Positions 40,927-51,793 of a DNA stretch of 64,000 bases are shown one piece after another; positions within the stretch are counted from its first letter, which is position 1, and each line of letters starts with the position of its first letter. The stretch lies in assembly GCF_014196795.1 (NCBI RefSeq), contig NZ_JACIEJ010000003.1, forward strand, positions 248,001-312,000. Reading direction: 5' to 3'. This DNA comes from Sagittula marina (GTDB lineage Bacteria > Pseudomonadota > Alphaproteobacteria > Rhodobacterales > Rhodobacteraceae). The notes below the pieces were generated by a model. That model was not told where the DNA came from and did no database searches. It worked only from the letters and a program-made list of their open reading frames with translations. The translations under genes were made by a program, and so were the position numbers.

Positions 40927-42051
40927 CTAGCCGATCACCGGGAATGTCATCTCTACCATCAGGCCGGTTTCACCGGACACATTGAGATGACCGAGGTTGC
41001 TGGACACGGTGGCACGGATCATCCGCCAGCCAAGCGATCCTGACCGTTCTGGCTGTTGGCCCGGCGCAAGACCGATGCCATCGTCGCTGAAGCGATAGGT
41101 GATGGTTTCTCCTTCGGTGGACATGGAGATGGCGATACGCCCTTCGGACCGATCCGCGAAGGCGTGTTTGAAGGCGTTGGTGATCAGCTCCCCCGTGATC
41201 AGCCCAAGGTCCAGCGCAAGCCGTGCCGGTATCGGCGCGTCATCGGCATTCACATCGACGTGCACAATCAGATCGGAGCGGTTGAAGCTTTCGGCCAAGG
41301 CGGAGATCTGTTGCAGGTAGGCCAAGGGGCGCACGCTTTCGGTGTCGCCGCTTTGCAGCAGCTTGTGGGTGCGGGCCATGGATTCGATGCGTATGCCAAG
41401 CGAGGAAAGGACGCCTTTGGCTTCGTCGGTCTGTGCGCGGCGCTGCTCCATCCGGACCAGAGACCCGATCATCGTCAGGTTATTGGCGGTGCGGTGATGT
41501 ACCTCTCCGATGGTCAGGTCCCGCGCGGTAAGGTCGCTTTCCAATTGGCGGATCCGGCGGTCGGCATTGCCTTCGCGCATCAGGATTTCATCGCAGCGAT
41601 TGCCTGCGGCCTCGGCGCATTGAGCGATGTCGGCGCTGTCGATCGGCGCCGCAAAATCCGCCTTGATCAGGGTGCCGGTGTTGCCGGTTTCGATCTGGAA
41701 GTTGTCCGCCATGCGCCGCGCGCCTGCCAGCCCAAGCCCCATGCCTTCGCCGTGGGCGTAGGGCTCACGACCGGCCATCGCCGCATCCAGATCGTCAATC
41801 CCCGAGCCCTGATCCGCAAAGGCCAGGCGCAACACCACGGCGCCGCCGCGCGGCTCATGCAGGCTAAGCCGAGCATGTCCACCTTGACCATGCTCGATCA
41901 CGTTGCGCGCCAACTCCATCGCGCAGGTGGTCAGCCGTGTCGCATGGAACGGTTTGAACCCGAGGCTGGCGGTGACGGCCTTGGCAATCTTTTGCAGGAT
42001 CTTGATGTCGTCCGCCACGGTCAGCGAAAGCGAAGTGATTGTCTGGGCCAT
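40927..42051 (-). CDS. dual-ATPase sensor kinase: N-terminal RsbT/RsbW-like domain fused to a HisKA_2/HWE-type histidine kinase
   Basis: 374 residues from the ATG at 42051 (GGAG upstream). Residues about 1-135 form one GHKL ATPase like RsbT/RsbW: TTCAMELARNVIEHGQGG (N box), FADQGSGIDDLDAAM, EGMGLGLAGARRMAD. A second kinase follows: the phosphoacceptor helix is LTIGEVHHRTANNLTMIGSL, the HisKA_2 form of the H box, then its own ATPase (LGLITGELITNAFKHAF, FSDDGIGL, SLGWRMIRATVSSNLG). The first four genes of the same operon are RsbR, RsbS, RsbT and an RsbX-like phosphatase. HWE/HisKA_2 kinases feed the PhyR general stress response in alphaproteobacteria, so this may be the output. No response regulator is adjacent. 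Confidence 0.88.
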   Translation of the reverse strand: MAQTITSLSLTVADDIKILQKIAKAVTASLGFKPFHATRLTTCAMELARNVIEHGQGGHARLSLHEPRGGAVVLRLAFADQGSGIDDLDAAMAGREPYAHGEGMGLGLAGARRMADNFQIETGNTGTLIKADFAAPIDSADIAQCAEAAGNRCDEILMREGNADRRIRQLESDLTARDLTIGEVHHRTANNLTMIGSLVRMEQRRAQTDEAKGVLSSLGIRIESMARTHKLLQSGDTESVRPLAYLQQISALAESFNRSDLIVHVDVNADDAPIPARLALDLGLITGELITNAFKHAFADRSEGRIAISMSTEGETITYRFSDDGIGLAPGQQPERSGSLGWRMIRATVSSNLGHLNVSGETGLMVEMTFPVIG

Positions 42052-42085
42052 CGTCCTCTCCGGATAGGCTAAGGGAAGGGTCGCG

Positions 42086-43084
42086 TCAGTCGTCAGAACG
42101 AACCCAGTGGGCCACTGCGACGCTGATGTCATCGCGGCGGTATAAATCGCGATTGGCCATCAATAGCGCCGCTGTCATCAGGGCGCTTTGCCCGAACAGG
42201 GGTCTTGTGTCCTCCGGTCCTACAGTGCGCAAGCCATCGCTGTGCAGCACGAAGGTATCACCGGGCTCAAGGTCGATGCGTTCTTCCATCGGACGTGCGG
42301 CGGGGCTTCCGATGTAGCCGTCGCGTGTGGCCAAACGCTTTTGGTCGCCACGGCGCAGATAGAAGGCGCTGATATTGCCAAGGTTGCCGTAGTCGACGCG
42401 CAGGGCGCCTGGCTGCAGATCGAGAAGCGACATGACACCGCCTCGGGTACGTTTCAGATCGTCGGCGATCTGCAACAGGCGCTGCTTTGGCGGATGCATG
42501 GGGCGGTGCAGCGCGCCGTCCACCATGGCCTGACCGGCCTCGGCGGCGGAATCGCCGTGTCCCATGCCATCTGCCAGCACAAGCCGCACCCCGCCGCGAT
42601 GCTCTGTCGTGCCCCAAACGTCACCGCACACAGTCTCGGTGGGATGGGACAGACGCAGACCGGCGATGTCCAGCCCATGCGGGCGCGTCACATCTGCCGT
42701 GTCAAAACGGCAGGCCCAAACTGTGCCCGTCGGTCCGGTGACGATCTCTGCGCGGTCGGACAGACGCTCGATCGCGCCGATGCCGATGCCAGCGCTGTCT
42801 CCTTCGCTGATGCGATCCTGGCGCATTCGGTCCAGATCGTCGATGCCGGGCCCGTCGTCAAAGGCAATCAGGGCGAGGGAAACTCCCATCGGCTGGGGCA
42901 TGACCTGCGCCAGAAAGCACCCTGTGCCGGCATATTTCAGGATATTGGTGGTCAGTTCGGTGGCTACGATGGCGATGTCCTCGGCCCGCGTCGGGCTGAG
43001 CCCCGCTTGCACGGCTTCGGCGCGCGCTTGTTGACGTGCGGCAGCCACGTCGGCGCGCGTGGTGATGTGGAGACATTCCAGCAT
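42086..43084 (-). CDS. RsbX/SpoIIE-type PP2C phosphatase with N-terminal RsbT/RsbW-like ATPase domain
   Basis: 332 residues. Residues about 1-135 are a GHKL ATPase: IAIVATELTTNILKYAG (N box), AFDDGPGIDDLDRMRQD, SAGIGIGAIERLSDRAE. Residues about 140-332 are a PP2C/SpoIIE phosphatase with the metal Asp motif VRLVLADGMGHGDSAAEAG, a central GNLGNISAFYLR and the C-terminal FVLHSDGLRTV and RRDDISVAVAHW. In Firmicutes RsbX is the phosphatase domain alone (about 200 residues) and resets RsbR and RsbS. It lies 30 bp after rsbT and 34 bp before the kinase gene. Confidence 0.9.
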   Translation of the reverse strand: MLECLHITTRADVAAARQQARAEAVQAGLSPTRAEDIAIVATELTTNILKYAGTGCFLAQVMPQPMGVSLALIAFDDGPGIDDLDRMRQDRISEGDSAGIGIGAIERLSDRAEIVTGPTGTVWACRFDTADVTRPHGLDIAGLRLSHPTETVCGDVWGTTEHRGGVRLVLADGMGHGDSAAEAGQAMVDGALHRPMHPPKQRLLQIADDLKRTRGGVMSLLDLQPGALRVDYGNLGNISAFYLRRGDQKRLATRDGYIGSPAARPMEERIDLEPGDTFVLHSDGLRTVGPEDTRPLFGQSALMTAALLMANRDLYRRDDISVAVAHWVRSDD

Positions 43085-43114
43085 AAGGCACCTTTCCCTT
43101 CTGCGTTGGCGGCG

Positions 43115-43531
43115 TTACGCGCGCCCGGCCAATCTGACCTGCGTGCCGATCCCCGGTTCGGAGAGGACTTCGAAAGCGTCTGCCAGACGCTTCGCGCCAC
43201 CCAAACCGCGCCCCAAGCCGCTCCCGGAGGTATAGCCGTCGCTCAGGGCGAGCGCCATATCCTCGATCCCCGGGCCGTCGTCGCAACAGTCTATCCAGAC
43301 AGTGCGCGTGGCATTGTGGCAATGGATCAGGACCAGGGCACCGCCGCCGTAAATCAGCCCGTTGCGAAATATCTCACTGACTGCTGTCACCAGCCGGGTC
43401 TTGCGGATGACCTTGGCGCCGAGGGCGTCCATGGCACGTCCTACGGACTGACGGGCACGAAAGATATCTTGTTCGGTACGGATTTCATAGCTTTCGAAAA
43501 GTGTTCCCGGCAAAGGCGGGAGCCGTCTCAC
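43115..43531 (-). CDS. rsbT: stressosome switch kinase RsbT
   Basis: 138 residues, GTG start in a GTGA overlap with rsbS. The GHKL ATPase is compact: KTRLVTAVSEIFRNGLIYGGG (N box with Glu and Asn), CCDDGPGIEDMALAL and SGSGLGRGLGGAKRLAD. RsbT phosphorylates RsbS and RsbR in the stressosome, is released, and activates a downstream partner. That partner is RsbU in Bacillus and is not encoded here. Confidence 0.92.
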   Translation of the reverse strand: MRRLPPLPGTLFESYEIRTEQDIFRARQSVGRAMDALGAKVIRKTRLVTAVSEIFRNGLIYGGGALVLIHCHNATRTVWIDCCDDGPGIEDMALALSDGYTSGSGLGRGLGGAKRLADAFEVLSEPGIGTQVRLAGRA

Positions 43532-43884
43532 CGACTGGCCCTGAGCCGCGTCACCGCGTGTTGCAGATTGCGCGCGGTTTTCACCGCAGGCAGGGTCATG
43601 CCCAGTTCCACCAAAGTCATCGCCACCGCTGGCCGCATCCCGACAAGGTAGGTCGGCGCATCCATGAGCACGCCAATCCCCGCCAACTGCGCGATGATCC
43701 GTCCGACAAAGGTGTCGACGATTTCCAGCGCGCTGATGTCTATGACGATCCCTTGAGCGTTGTTGGCATGAACCTCCTCGGCCAGCCGGTCCTGAAGCGC
43801 CACGATGTCGCTGTCGTTGATGTTTTCGTCAATCGCGACCAGCATGATCTCGTCGACCATGAAAAGTCCTGCAGCCTGGCTCAT
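43528..43884 (-). CDS. rsbS: stressosome STAS protein RsbS
   Basis: 118 residues from the ATG at 43884 (GGAG eight bases upstream). A single STAS domain: GLFMVDEIMLVAIDENIND, GIVIDISALEIVDTFVGRII, YLVGMRPAVAMTLVELGMTL. The conserved phosphorylation site (Ser59 of B. subtilis RsbS) is Thr58 here, in VDTFVGR. RsbS with RsbR forms the stressosome core that holds RsbT. The gene overlaps rsbT by four bases. Confidence 0.93.
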   Translation of the reverse strand: MSQAAGLFMVDEIMLVAIDENINDSDIVALQDRLAEEVHANNAQGIVIDISALEIVDTFVGRIIAQLAGIGVLMDAPTYLVGMRPAVAMTLVELGMTLPAVKTARNLQHAVTRLRASR

Positions 43885-43900
43885 ATCGACGGCTCCGCGC

Positions 43901-44770
43901 TCATTTCGCAATGCGAGAGATGACGTCAGTGTCCAACTGACGGAACGCATCGGCCAGCGCCATGCGCAGCGAACTGCGGGTGCGGATCTCGCCGGTGTCC
44001 ACGCCGAGCTGCACCATGGTCTGCGCGATGCGCGGGCTGATGCCGCTGATGATCGCTTCTGCGCCCATCAGGCGGACGGCGGCGGCGGTGCGGATCAGGT
44101 GCTGGGCCACCTGTGTATCGACGGTCAGAACGCCGGTGATGTCGATGATGACAATGTCGGCCTTCTTGTCGACGATGGCGGACAGCGTGTTTTCCATCAC
44201 CTCCTGGGCGCGCATGGAATCAAGCGTGCCGACCAATGGCACCGCGACGATGCGATCCCAAAGCTCCACCACGGGAGAGGCCAGTTCCATCATTTCTTCT
44301 TGTTGACGTCTGATGGTCTTGTCGCGTTCGGAGATGCAGAGCTCGGTGGTGTACAGCGACACCGAGTCGATCAGGCGGGTGAACTGGTTCACTGCGTCAA
44401 TCAGCACCTTGCCGTTGGAATCGTCCACCGTTGTGCGCAGACGCTCGAACAGCGGATATTTCAGCGCCAGAACAAAAGCTGCCATTTCGGCGGTTGAAAC
44501 ACCGCGCTTTGTGCGCTCGCGCGTGACATCTGCCAAAGCCGCGCGCATGTCGTCCCAGCACTCGGCGTCGGGGTCCAGAAGGTCGGTTTCGACGCTGGCC
44601 TTCACGCCCTTCGATAGCGCATCATACAGCATCTCGGTCTGGGTGCGCGCCTCGCGCTCGGTGAACAAGTCCCGGCGGATCAAGCCTTCTTCGGCTTGCG
44701 TGGAGCCCCATGCCTTCAACAACAGCTCGCGTTCGTTGTCCAGGATCACATGAATATAGCGCACAGGCAT
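43901..44770 (-). CDS. rsbR: stressosome sensor RsbR
   Basis: 289 residues. The N-terminal 150 residues are helical (RELLLKAWGSTQAEEGL, LLDPDAECWDDMRAALADV) and resemble the RsbRD-type sensory domain. The C-terminal STAS domain (about 165-285) keeps both phospho-threonines of RsbRA: Thr219 in TVDTQVAQH and Thr251 in ISPRIAQTMVQLG. RsbR subunits sense stress and, with RsbS, sequester RsbT. Only one RsbR gene is present. A sigma-70-like promoter lies about 45 bp upstream. Confidence 0.92.
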   Translation of the reverse strand: MPVRYIHVILDNERELLLKAWGSTQAEEGLIRRDLFTEREARTQTEMLYDALSKGVKASVETDLLDPDAECWDDMRAALADVTRERTKRGVSTAEMAAFVLALKYPLFERLRTTVDDSNGKVLIDAVNQFTRLIDSVSLYTTELCISERDKTIRRQQEEMMELASPVVELWDRIVAVPLVGTLDSMRAQEVMENTLSAIVDKKADIVIIDITGVLTVDTQVAQHLIRTAAAVRLMGAEAIISGISPRIAQTMVQLGVDTGEIRTRSSLRMALADAFRQLDTDVISRIAK

Positions 44771-49742: not shown

Positions 49743-50381
49743 TCAGACGTTGGCGCCGGTGCCTTGCAGCACGCCGTGTTCCATGGCGTAGCGCGTCAGG
49801 CCGGCGGTGGTGGAGATATCGAGCTTGCGCTTGATGTTCTTGCGGTGGGTCTCGACGGTCCGGACCGAGATGTTGAGCGCCAGAGCCACTTCCTTGTTGG
49901 ACTTGCCTTGCGCCAATTGCAGCAAAACTGTCTGTTCGCGGGTGGTCAGCGGATCACGGCCCCCGGCATTGATCGGCGTGAGCGCACCGGTGGCCCCGGT
50001 GCACAAGTACCGCTCGCCGCGCATCACCGCGTCAATGGCTTCCTTGATCTCGTCCGTCGGCACGTCCTTGAGGACATAGCCGCGCGCCCCGTGTGAAAGT
50101 GCGGTGGAGACATATTCAGGCGTGTCATGCATCGACAGAACCAGGATCCGGGTCTCTGGCGCGCGTTCAAGGATCATTTCCGTGGCGGACAACCCGCCCA
50201 ATCCCGGCATGTTGAGGTCCATCAGGATCACGTCCGGATCCAGGTCGGACAGCCGGTCAATCATGGTCTGCCCGTCGCCCAACGTGGCCGCGACTTCGAT
50301 GTCGTCGTAGCTTTCGAGCAATGCCTCGATGCCTTCGGCCACGAGGGGGTGATCGTCTACGATCACGACGCGGATGCGCAT
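49743..50381 (-). CDS. NarL/LuxR-family response regulator
   Basis: 212 residues. The receiver domain has VVIVDDHPLVAEG, the phospho-acceptor in VILMDLNMPGLGG (about Asp54), the Ser in ILVLSMHD and the Lys in GYVLKDVP. The output is a LuxR-type HTH (PLTTREQTVLLQLAQGKSNKEVALALNISVRTVETHRKNIKRKL). It lies 29 bp after its partner sensor kinase on the same strand, and next to a LysR regulator and TRAP transporter that may be under its control. Confidence 0.94.
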   Translation of the reverse strand: MRIRVVIVDDHPLVAEGIEALLESYDDIEVAATLGDGQTMIDRLSDLDPDVILMDLNMPGLGGLSATEMILERAPETRILVLSMHDTPEYVSTALSHGARGYVLKDVPTDEIKEAIDAVMRGERYLCTGATGALTPINAGGRDPLTTREQTVLLQLAQGKSNKEVALALNISVRTVETHRKNIKRKLDISTTAGLTRYAMEHGVLQGTGANV

Positions 50382-50410: not shown

Positions 50411-51793
50411 TTACTCGGGGGGCAACAGTTGGGTCAAGGGAACCTGAGCTTCTACCACGGTTCCCGTCCTTGTGGAATGCACACGCAGCGTGCCGCCGAG
50501 TTGATCAATACGTTCCTGCATGTTTCGCAGGCCAATTCCCTTGAGCGGACGCGCGCGGTCATCAAGGCCGCATCCGTTGTCGGCGATCCACATGGTCGCG
50601 CCGCTGCGATGGCCGCGCAGGTCAAGGCGGACCTCCGTGGCACCGGCATGCCGTTCCACATTGGTCAGCGCTTCTTGCGCGATGCGGTAAAGCGCGATTT
50701 TCGCCTCCTGGCTCAGGCGGTTGCTGAAGACGACCGTCTCGAACTGCGTGTCGATGCCCGTGCGTGTGCGAAAGTCGTCGGTCAGCGCCTTCAATGCGGG
50801 CCCAAGGCCAAGGTCGTCCAGGATGCCGGGCCGCAAATCGCGCGAGATGCGACGGACCTCCTGAATGGCGGTCGCAAGATTGGTGACCCCGGATTCCAGC
50901 GTATCCTGGGCCCTGGGATCGCCGCTTGCCAGCCTCCGCCGGGCGATGTCGAGGGCGTATTTTATTCCGACGAGCAATTGACTGATGCCGTCGTGGAGCT
51001 CGCGGGCAACGCGCCCGCGTTCTTCTTCCTGGGCGTCCAGCACACGCTGAGTCAGCTCTTTCAGCTTGGCATCTGCCAGCCGTCGTTCTCGGATATTGAT
51101 GACAAGACCAGACAGGAACACCAGCAGCAGCGAACCCAGGGCAATTGCGCCGATCCACAAGAAAGTGCGGCGCACGCGGGTTTCTGTCTCGGCCCGGGTG
51201 GCGGCGACAGTGCGCAGCACATCATCGATGAAGACCCCGGTGCCGACGGCCCATCGCCACGAAGGGAATGAGGTCACATAGGTGATCATCCGGGCCTCTT
51301 CGCCGGTGGTGGGTTTGGGCCAGAGATGTTCGACGTAGCCCGCACCCTCGCGCGCGGTGGCGATGAAATCCTGGACGACGCGCGTCCCCTCGCTGTCCGT
51401 GCGGTCCCACTGATTGGTGTTGATAAGTTCGGTCTGCCGAGGAGAGACGAGGTTCAAACCGTCATAATCATACACAAAGAAGAACCCGTCTTCGCCATAG
51501 ATCATCGCTGACAGGATCTGCATGACCCGCTCTTTGGCGGCCTCGTCGTCCGGCGCGGCGGAGCCGTAGATGAAATAAAACCCGTTGCGCGCCTGCGTGA
51601 CGTAATTTCGCAGCTCTCGTTTCTTGGCCTCGATCAATTGCGTTTCCAACCCGCGGATTTCCCGTTCCGCCAAACTGCGGGCCTGAAAGGCCACGAGCAA
51701 CGCAATGGCCGTCACTGCCAGGATCAGCGGCAGCGAGGCGAGCAGGAACATTTTCTGGCCGTAGGTGAGCCACAGGCGGTGAAAGCGCGACAT
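50411..51793 (-). CDS. Cache-domain sensor histidine kinase, NarX/DegS class
   Basis: 460 residues. A first membrane helix (about 15-35) is followed by a periplasmic single-Cache domain (about 40-200; MIYGEDGFFFVYDYDGLNLV, YVEHLWPKP, TSFPSWRWAVGTGVFIDDV), then a second helix (about 210-232). The HisKA_3 phosphoacceptor is EERGRVARELHDGISQLLVG and the ATPase has ALTNVERHAGA and DNGCGLDD and GIGLRNMQERIDQLGG. Cache sensors of this type usually bind small organic acids. It pairs with the NarL-type regulator downstream. Confidence 0.93.
   Translation of the reverse strand: MSRFHRLWLTYGQKMFLLASLPLILAVTAIALLVAFQARSLAEREIRGLETQLIEAKKRELRNYVTQARNGFYFIYGSAAPDDEAAKERVMQILSAMIYGEDGFFFVYDYDGLNLVSPRQTELINTNQWDRTDSEGTRVVQDFIATAREGAGYVEHLWPKPTTGEEARMITYVTSFPSWRWAVGTGVFIDDVLRTVAATRAETETRVRRTFLWIGAIALGSLLLVFLSGLVINIRERRLADAKLKELTQRVLDAQEEERGRVARELHDGISQLLVGIKYALDIARRRLASGDPRAQDTLESGVTNLATAIQEVRRISRDLRPGILDDLGLGPALKALTDDFRTRTGIDTQFETVVFSNRLSQEAKIALYRIAQEALTNVERHAGATEVRLDLRGHRSGATMWIADNGCGLDDRARPLKGIGLRNMQERIDQLGGTLRVHSTRTGTVVEAQVPLTQLLPPE

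Follow-up and report, generated by a model that had tools for sequence, protein, structure and literature searches.

RsbT-type domains on a phosphatase and a histidine kinase in a predicted stressosome operon of Sagittula marina

A 64,000-nucleotide stretch of the Sagittula marina genome (NCBI RefSeq assembly GCF_014196795.1, contig NZ_JACIEJ010000003.1, positions 248,001 to 312,000; 'the window' throughout) contained a five-gene operon on the minus strand (40927-44770) encoding RsbR, RsbS, RsbT, a phosphatase (X) and a histidine kinase (K), in that order. As judged by sequence comparison, the operon encodes three sister RsbT-type domains, one free (RsbT itself), one on the reset phosphatase and one on the output kinase. 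It is a predicted variant of the Gram-negative stressosome in which one docking domain is carried by three proteins and a Ser/Thr-kinase domain is fused to the output histidine kinase. How Gram-negative stressosomes without sigma-B transmit their signal is an open question, and contact with RsbT could not be demonstrated for VvD1, a Vibrio kinase lacking RsbU_N (PMC9237108). The RsbT-type domain of K would offer a physical answer: the anatomy of K suggests that it probably docks on the stressosome through this domain of its own, and K is very likely the main output. A fusion of RsbT to a histidine kinase was not found in titles or abstract openings on stressosomes, and an earlier mention in reviews that were not consulted is possible.

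Operon layout and the three RsbT-type domains

The genes, domains and key residues were located as follows (window coordinates):

43901..44770, minus strand: RsbR, RsbRD_N sensor plus STAS domain (Pfam RsbRD_N E 4e-17, STAS 4e-14)
43528..43884, minus strand: RsbS, single STAS protein (Pfam STAS 1e-7; alignment)
43115..43531, minus strand: RsbT, free switch kinase, a lone GHKL ATPase (HATPase_c 4e-8, HATPase_c_2 2.5e-7)
42086..43084, minus strand: X, RsbT-type domain plus RsbX/SpoIIE-type PP2C phosphatase (HATPase_c_2 1.7e-10, SpoIIE/PP2C 5.5e-12)
42695..43084, minus strand: RsbT-type domain of X, residues 1-130 (hhalign to RsbT E 6.9e-28; tree)
42101..42652, minus strand: PP2C domain of X, about residues 145-328 (CGD, DGMGHG, HSDG and RDD motifs)
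40927..42051, minus strand: K, RsbT-type domain plus HisKA_2 dimerisation-phosphoacceptor (DHp) domain plus HATPase (HisKA_2 2.9e-15, HWE_HK 1.5e-7)
41638..42033, minus strand: RsbT-type domain of K, residues 34-165 (SpoIIAB fold; hhalign to RsbT E 7.2e-27)
41302..41505, minus strand: HisKA_2/HWE DHp domain of K (HHRTANN; Pfam)
41494..41496, minus strand: codon of histidine 213 of K, in the HRxxN motif
40936..41277, minus strand: C-terminal ATP-binding (CA) domain of K (N-box Glu typical of HWE/HisKA2; Pfam)

Sequence analysis established the domain make-up, the catalytic and phosphosite residues, the gene order, the relation of RsbT and the RsbT-type domains of X and K as sisters, and the absence of any conserved partner regulator in the neighbourhood. 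In profile-profile comparisons (hhalign), RsbT matched the RsbT-type domains of X and K with E-values of 6.9e-28 and 7.2e-27, respectively, and these two matched each other at 1.6e-22; against the CA domain of K itself, the values were 2.1e-7 (RsbT), 1.2e-10 (domain of X) and 4.5e-9 (domain of K). A tree was built from 73 domains, taken from the window, from 17 of 44 loci encoding K (described below) and from an RsbW-like protein of the same genome. A branch with 100/100 support separated the three RsbT-type domains from the CA domains; within the former, RsbT and the domains of X each occupied one side of a branch, those of K not clearly so. The tree carries a long-branch warning, and the placement of the RsbW-like protein in it is unsure.

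After domains of 100 residues or fewer had been dropped (one from RsbT, one from K), 131 domains were aligned (43 from RsbT, 44 from X and 44 from K). The catalytic Glu of the ATP site, the Mg-binding Asn and the G1 Asp were invariant in all of them; in K they are Glu73, Asn77 and Asp107, and its glycine boxes were invariant as well. In SpoIIAB, Glu46 has been described as the catalytic base, Asn50 as the Mg-binding residue and Arg20 as lying near the anti-anti-sigma partner (PMC10345196). Arg20 and Glu46 of SpoIIAB are 26 residues apart, and position 47 of K likewise lies exactly 26 residues before its Glu, with no gap in any aligned row. The Arg20 place was occupied by Arg in 43/43 RsbT domains, 44/44 domains of X and 40/44 domains of K. 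An AlphaFold2 model of the RsbT-type domain of K alone (predicted local distance difference test, pLDDT, 90.6) gave SpoIIAB as the top Foldseek match. Structural comparison with VIA-align ranked SpoIIAB (Z 16.8) before RsbW (14.8) and other anti-sigma kinases (13.9 to 12.9), with SiaB (11.9), Leptospira LvrC (11.7) and, from Z 10.0, histidine-kinase CA domains lower down. In fold and in the catalytic Glu, Asn and Asp, the domain thus has the traits of an RsbT/SpoIIAB switch kinase. The model of whole K had a mean pLDDT of 79.6 and EL346 of Erythrobacter litoralis as best PDB match.

Pfam placed two HATPase stretches in K, one on either side of the HisKA_2/HWE domain, and both HATPase families together with HisKA_2 matched all 46 K homologues scanned. 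A HisKA_2/HWE DHp domain with a CA domain containing the N-box Glu was present in 46/46, with E315 and N319 invariant, and HRxxN was found in 45/45; RsbU_N gave no Pfam match at E 0.001 in any of the 46. By a 19-residue hydropathy scan, K had no clear membrane span (44/45 below 1.6, and L087 at 1.61). An initial annotation of the window had called the fifth gene a HisKA_2/HWE kinase, with which these domains agree, and had missed its N-terminal RsbT-type domain.

The PP2C part of X resembled RsbX (PDB 3zt9, SpoIIE-type, E 1.2e-18; PDB 3w40, RsbX, E 4.8e-18), and its motifs were conserved among 44 X proteins (CGD, DGMGHG and RDD in 43 each, HSDG in 42). Unlike RsbX, X is not a single-domain protein, HATPase_c_2 and SpoIIE both being matched in 11/11 X proteins scanned with Pfam. 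The first four genes had previously been read as a stressosome core with its reset phosphatase; the core was recovered, as was an RsbX-type PP2C, the latter as part of a two-domain protein and not as a bare RsbX.

The core itself has the stressosome order, with a sensor-plus-STAS RsbR, a single-STAS RsbS and a single-GHKL RsbT encoded next to each other. RsbRD_N was matched in 11/11 R proteins scanned with Pfam, and the best PDB matches of RsbT were SpoIIAB. By motif matching, Thr219 (codon 44114-44116) and Thr251 (codon 44018-44020) of RsbR occupy the places of T171 and T205, the phosphosites named for B. subtilis RsbR in PMC6614362. In motif context, Thr was found in 43/43 RsbR proteins at the first place and in 42/43 at the second, where one protein had Ala. 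The place of phospho-Ser59 is taken in RsbS by a Thr (codon 43711-43713), again by motif matching; this Thr was found in 39/43 RsbS proteins, the other four being unmatched by the search pattern.

The operon limits and the overlaps or 16-34 bp gaps reported earlier were found unchanged. With the starts favoured by homologues (44770 for RsbR, 43884 for RsbS and 42051 for K), RsbR and RsbS are separated by 16 bp, RsbS and RsbT overlap by 4 bp, and gaps of 30 and 34 bp follow between RsbT and X and between X and K. The open frame of RsbR extends back to 45046. That of K starts at 42132, and the later ATG at 42051 was favoured because most homologues start there and because GGAGAGG precedes it.

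Conservation, distribution and relation to known stressosomes

Full-length K was found in 11 of 292 genomes of the order, including this one, and 24 more matched its kinase part only. A scan of GTDB, seeded with two K peptide patterns and neither exhaustive nor informative on RsbR-RsbS-RsbT sets without K, gave 44 K loci, with names from Rhodobacteraceae-type genera, Sphingomonadales and Roseibium. Conservation of the fifth gene with the first four, on which the initial annotation had made its reading depend, was borne out: R-S-T-X-K was present in 11/11 K genomes, and the five genes were complete and in order in 42/44 loci, contig ends truncating the remaining two. Such recurrence is beyond chance. 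Outside the five genes, neighbour families within 4.5 kb reached at most 8 of the 44 loci, most of the larger ones within a single genus.

The distribution of the cassette was patchy. A genome of the same genus (G158) had no match for K or RsbS, and an RsbS profile was positive in 14 of the 292 genomes, namely the same 11 K genomes and three with another layout. K-like genes were found on 60 plasmid records, 58 of them from Phaeobacter. All five genes were confirmed by profile on plasmid pPGA1_262 of Phaeobacter inhibens DSM 17395 (PGA1_RS18475-RS18495), annotated merely as STAS and ATP-binding proteins; the literature search gave no match for a stressosome in this species. Taken together, the R-S-T-X-K order, the lack of shared neighbours and the plasmid copies indicate that K is part of the unit, which appears to move as one, and the copy on pPGA1_262 would make the idea testable by simple gene removals. 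An Alloyangia pacifica assembly carried two five-gene cassettes on different contigs (L063 and L069), with proteins 91-99% identical.

RSTX modules followed by two-component genes have been described in Gram-negative bacteria, including Ruegeria (PMC9237108). This known layout, with kinase and REC gene, was present in 3 of the 14 RsbS-bearing genomes among the 292 (L158, L159 and L160, all of the same family), in the order protoglobin RsbR, RsbS, RsbT, PP2C, kinase (RsbU_N, HisKA and HATPase) and REC gene. The PP2C proteins of this type lack an RsbT-type domain, and their open frames span 209-254 aa. RsbR and kinase were checked with Pfam in all three genomes, phosphatase and REC gene in one, and the remaining assignments were made with local profiles. 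The S. marina operon shares with the Vibrio/Ruegeria type (Heinz 2022, PMC9237108) the R-S-T-X order, the histidine kinase that follows and the lack of a sigma-B branch. It differs in having RsbRD_N on RsbR (11/11 scanned) where the set surveyed in that paper is of the globin type. It also differs in the RsbT-type domains on X and K, in the HisKA_2/HWE class of the kinase, which lacks RsbU_N, and in having no REC gene adjacent in the window and none linked. RsbU_N was found on the downstream kinase in all three genomes of the other layout and is a trait of some Heinz 2022 members only.

The rsbRSTUVW-sigB-rsbX operons of Bacillus and Listeria share RsbR, RsbS and RsbT with their phosphosite residues, and an RsbX-type phosphatase. 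Here, in contrast, a histidine kinase is the predicted output, RsbS has Thr instead of Ser at its site, RsbX carries a fused RsbT-type domain, and no RsbU or sigma-B gene was found in the window (RsbU was not searched genome-wide). The reported lack of RsbU, RsbV, RsbW and sigma-B holds for the window; for RsbV and RsbW it does not extend to the genome, where an RsbV-like STAS gene and an RsbW-like kinase gene overlap head to tail (G000 C2:378626-379389, about 378.5-379.4 kb; L131:6480-7417). This pair resembles rbaV-rbaW of Rhodobacter capsulatus (PMC3999984). With RsbT, RsbW and SpoIIAB, the RsbT-type domains of X and K share the fold, the catalytic Glu, Asn and Asp and, in 44/44 and 40/44 cases, respectively, the Arg20-type Arg; they differ in being fused to a PP2C phosphatase or a histidine kinase.

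A possible route from the stressosome to PhyR

In the mechanism that we propose, RsbR and RsbS would form a STAS core, and RsbT would be the switch kinase phosphorylating conserved threonines of both. X and K would dock on STAS sites through their copies of the RsbT domain, or compete with RsbT there, and in the resting state the core would hold K. Once RsbR senses stress, RsbT, and perhaps the RsbT-type domain of K as well, would phosphorylate RsbS and RsbR; this would alter which RsbT-type domains bind the core, so that K would be freed or re-oriented. The HisKA_2 part of K would then autophosphorylate and pass its phosphate to a regulator encoded elsewhere, most likely PhyR, either directly or via an SdrG-type single-domain regulator. 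Activated PhyR would titrate NepR and free EcfG, and X would reset the system by removing phosphate from RsbS~P and RsbR~P. Docking enters this model mainly because the kinase of the other layout can read RsbT via RsbU_N, whereas K itself carries an RsbT domain. PhyR/SdrG as the target of K is, from the sequence evidence, evenly poised, and the whole chain, from the cassette through docking by the RsbT-type domain to phosphorylation of trans-encoded PhyR/SdrG, is plausible while falling just short of that. In its fullest form, with a dual Ser/Thr-His kinase whose histidine kinase is gated by the core, which would join the stressosome to PhyR-NepR-EcfG, and with RsbT, X and K competing through their shared domain, the proposal is tentative and somewhat doubtful. 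If true, two textbook stress circuits would be fused, and a simple competition model would follow from the three sister domains borne by RsbT, X and K.

The pathway in question, named in the initial annotation as the general stress response to which the operon might be coupled, is present: PhyR, NepR and EcfG lie side by side in this genome, where EcfG also has a HisKA_2 protein as neighbour and PhyR a GAF-HWE kinase. The PhyR-NepR-EcfG pathway usually receives its input from HWE/HisKA2 kinases (PMC12148442); HRxxN has been given as a trait of PhyR-activating kinases, and soluble Paks with HRxxN phosphorylate SdrG and PhyR in Sphingomonas melonis (PMC5898713). K has the sequence traits of such kinases (Pak/PhyK), namely HRxxN, solubility and no linkage to a partner regulator. 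In common with Paks, PhyK and LOV histidine kinases it has HRxxN, no clear membrane span and no linked regulator, and it differs from them in that its input is an RsbT-type domain and not a PAS, LOV, GAF or periplasmic sensor. The kinase part of K was nearest to the PhyK (78 bits) and LOV-kinase (64 bits) models, both scores being far below the cut-offs; for the PhyK equivalog NF051872 the cut-off is 750 bits, and the 78 bits came from the kinase part only.

NepR was found in 11/11 K genomes compared with 194/292 (P 0.01). In a second set of 44 genomes a profile detected it in 42; this set comprised 42 genomes from named loci plus G004 and G183, with L085 absent and L069 omitted as the same assembly as L063, and it overlaps the 11 K genomes (for example, L050 is G159), so that the two counts are not independent. 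The two in which the profile missed it, both Pacificimonas, had PhyR- and EcfG-type matches. Short ORFs (open reading frames) that look like NepR by eye were seen in these two genomes, at L132:6854-7036 on the minus strand and as a similar ORF in L133. What we take to be the EcfG-type promoter pattern matched upstream of phyR (L048:8677) and at two more positions within that 18-kb stretch of this genome; the stretches from the two Pacificimonas genomes gave no match. Pfam detected no ATPase domain in the HisKA_2 protein next to EcfG (L048:6060-7790). That it is a PhyT-type phosphotransferase would be a guess, because the GAF-HWE kinase beside PhyR likewise has no such match.

Contrary evidence and alternative readings

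Several observations count against docking by an RsbT-type domain and a PhyR output. For the domain, a search of the PDB set with the sequence profile of the RsbT-type domain of K gave a slightly better match to CA domains of histidine kinases (4e-6) than to SpoIIAB (0.0055), and in hhalign the RsbW-like protein of this genome matches the CA domain of K (2.1e-7) but none of the RsbT-type domains (0.006 to 0.14). For the output, HRxxN fits most HisKA_2 kinases too. By genus, NepR was found in 7/7 compared with 77/112 (P 0.066, not significant), NepR was present in every one of the 35 genomes that had a K-like kinase match of any kind, and the NepR profile missed both Pacificimonas genomes of the second set. 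Co-occurrence of K and NepR, considered as proof of the coupling, was rejected on account of the result by genus and of its being true of all 35 K-like genomes. No EcfG-type promoter was found before RsbR in 43 operons (the window and 42 loci) with either the strict or the looser pattern (0.32 and 0.76 expected, respectively). The PhyR step is thus plausible but indirect, since no such promoter precedes the operon and the co-occurrence by genus is not significant. Related single-domain regulators were encoded upstream of RsbR in two loci (L070:2634-3002 and L073:4681-5058), next to RsbR in L073 and with a hybrid kinase between in L070, and could possibly be private partners of K. At the Arg20 place, finally, K of the window has Gln47 and not Arg, as do three near relatives, and Arg20 of SpoIIAB has also been described as contacting the sigma factor, so that an Arg20-type Arg is no proof of STAS binding (PMC10345196). 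The earlier reading was right in outline, incomplete in its anatomy and partly supported, the coupling being unproven.

That K is the stressosome output and addresses a private or different regulator, with no involvement of the general stress response, is a sizeable minority possibility. It would fit the single-domain REC genes upstream of RsbR in L073 and L070, REC-bearing kinases that five Limimaricola loci have some 5 kb downstream, the 64 REC matches in this genome and the lack of an EcfG-type promoter. A conserved response regulator nearby, proposed earlier as something to look for, did not emerge: with a profile built on 29 receivers of this genome, REC was found in the flanks of 7/44 loci, some flanks being short, and none of these REC genes was conserved. 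A private partner would therefore have to be scattered, and the kinase part of K is nearest to PhyK and LOV kinases. A scan of the loci for the FAT-GUY motif, which we take to mark SdrG-type single-domain regulators, gave only out-of-context matches and matches in Limimaricola hybrid kinases; it did not extend to every one of the genome's 64 receivers. Alternatively, RsbT released from the core might pair with the RsbT-type domain of K as a GHKL hetero-dimer, or phosphorylate K, and thereby switch on the histidine kinase; K itself would never sit on the core. In the standard model RsbT is released (PMC6614362), a proposal for Vibrio has a downstream kinase without RsbU_N phosphorylated in an RsbT-dependent manner (PMC9237108), and each of the 42 intact loci retains RsbT as a gene of its own. 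A pure receptor of RsbT would need neither the Arg20-type Arg (40/44 in K) nor a full set of catalytic residues, however, and X bears the same domain, where docking on the core would presumably benefit a phosphatase that acts on RsbS and RsbR. Binding of RsbT to the kinase, suggested in the initial annotation as a test, is not the likeliest route because the kinase carries an RsbT-type domain of its own, and we regard this alternative as unlikely.

Two further readings concern the nature of the RsbT-type domain of K, and both appear very improbable. It might act mainly as an enzyme on STAS proteins, including the RsbV-like one, with the HisKA_2 part regulating it and two-component input feeding into partner switching. 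The invariance of the catalytic Glu, Asn and Asp in 44/44 complete domains and the presence of the RsbV/RsbW-like pair at C2 are in line with this, but the key residues of the HisKA_2 and CA domains are equally invariant, no input regulator is linked, and the RsbV/RsbW pair was examined in this genome only. Or the operon might be an ordinary RSTX and histidine-kinase module in which the domain is an ATPase-like linker, RSTX modules with two-component genes being described, Ruegeria included (PMC9237108). The known layout in the same family differs, however, in sensor, phosphatase, kinase docking domain, kinase class and REC gene, and the domain of K is a full sister of RsbT and not a linker. 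Docking of K through this domain remains the reading that we favour.

Further upstream in the window, a gene for a NarL-type response regulator (49743-50381) adjoins that of a Cache-domain HisKA_3 kinase (50411-51793), both on the minus strand. The regulator, about 5 kb upstream of RsbR, was considered as a partner of K and dropped, being paired with its own Cache kinase.

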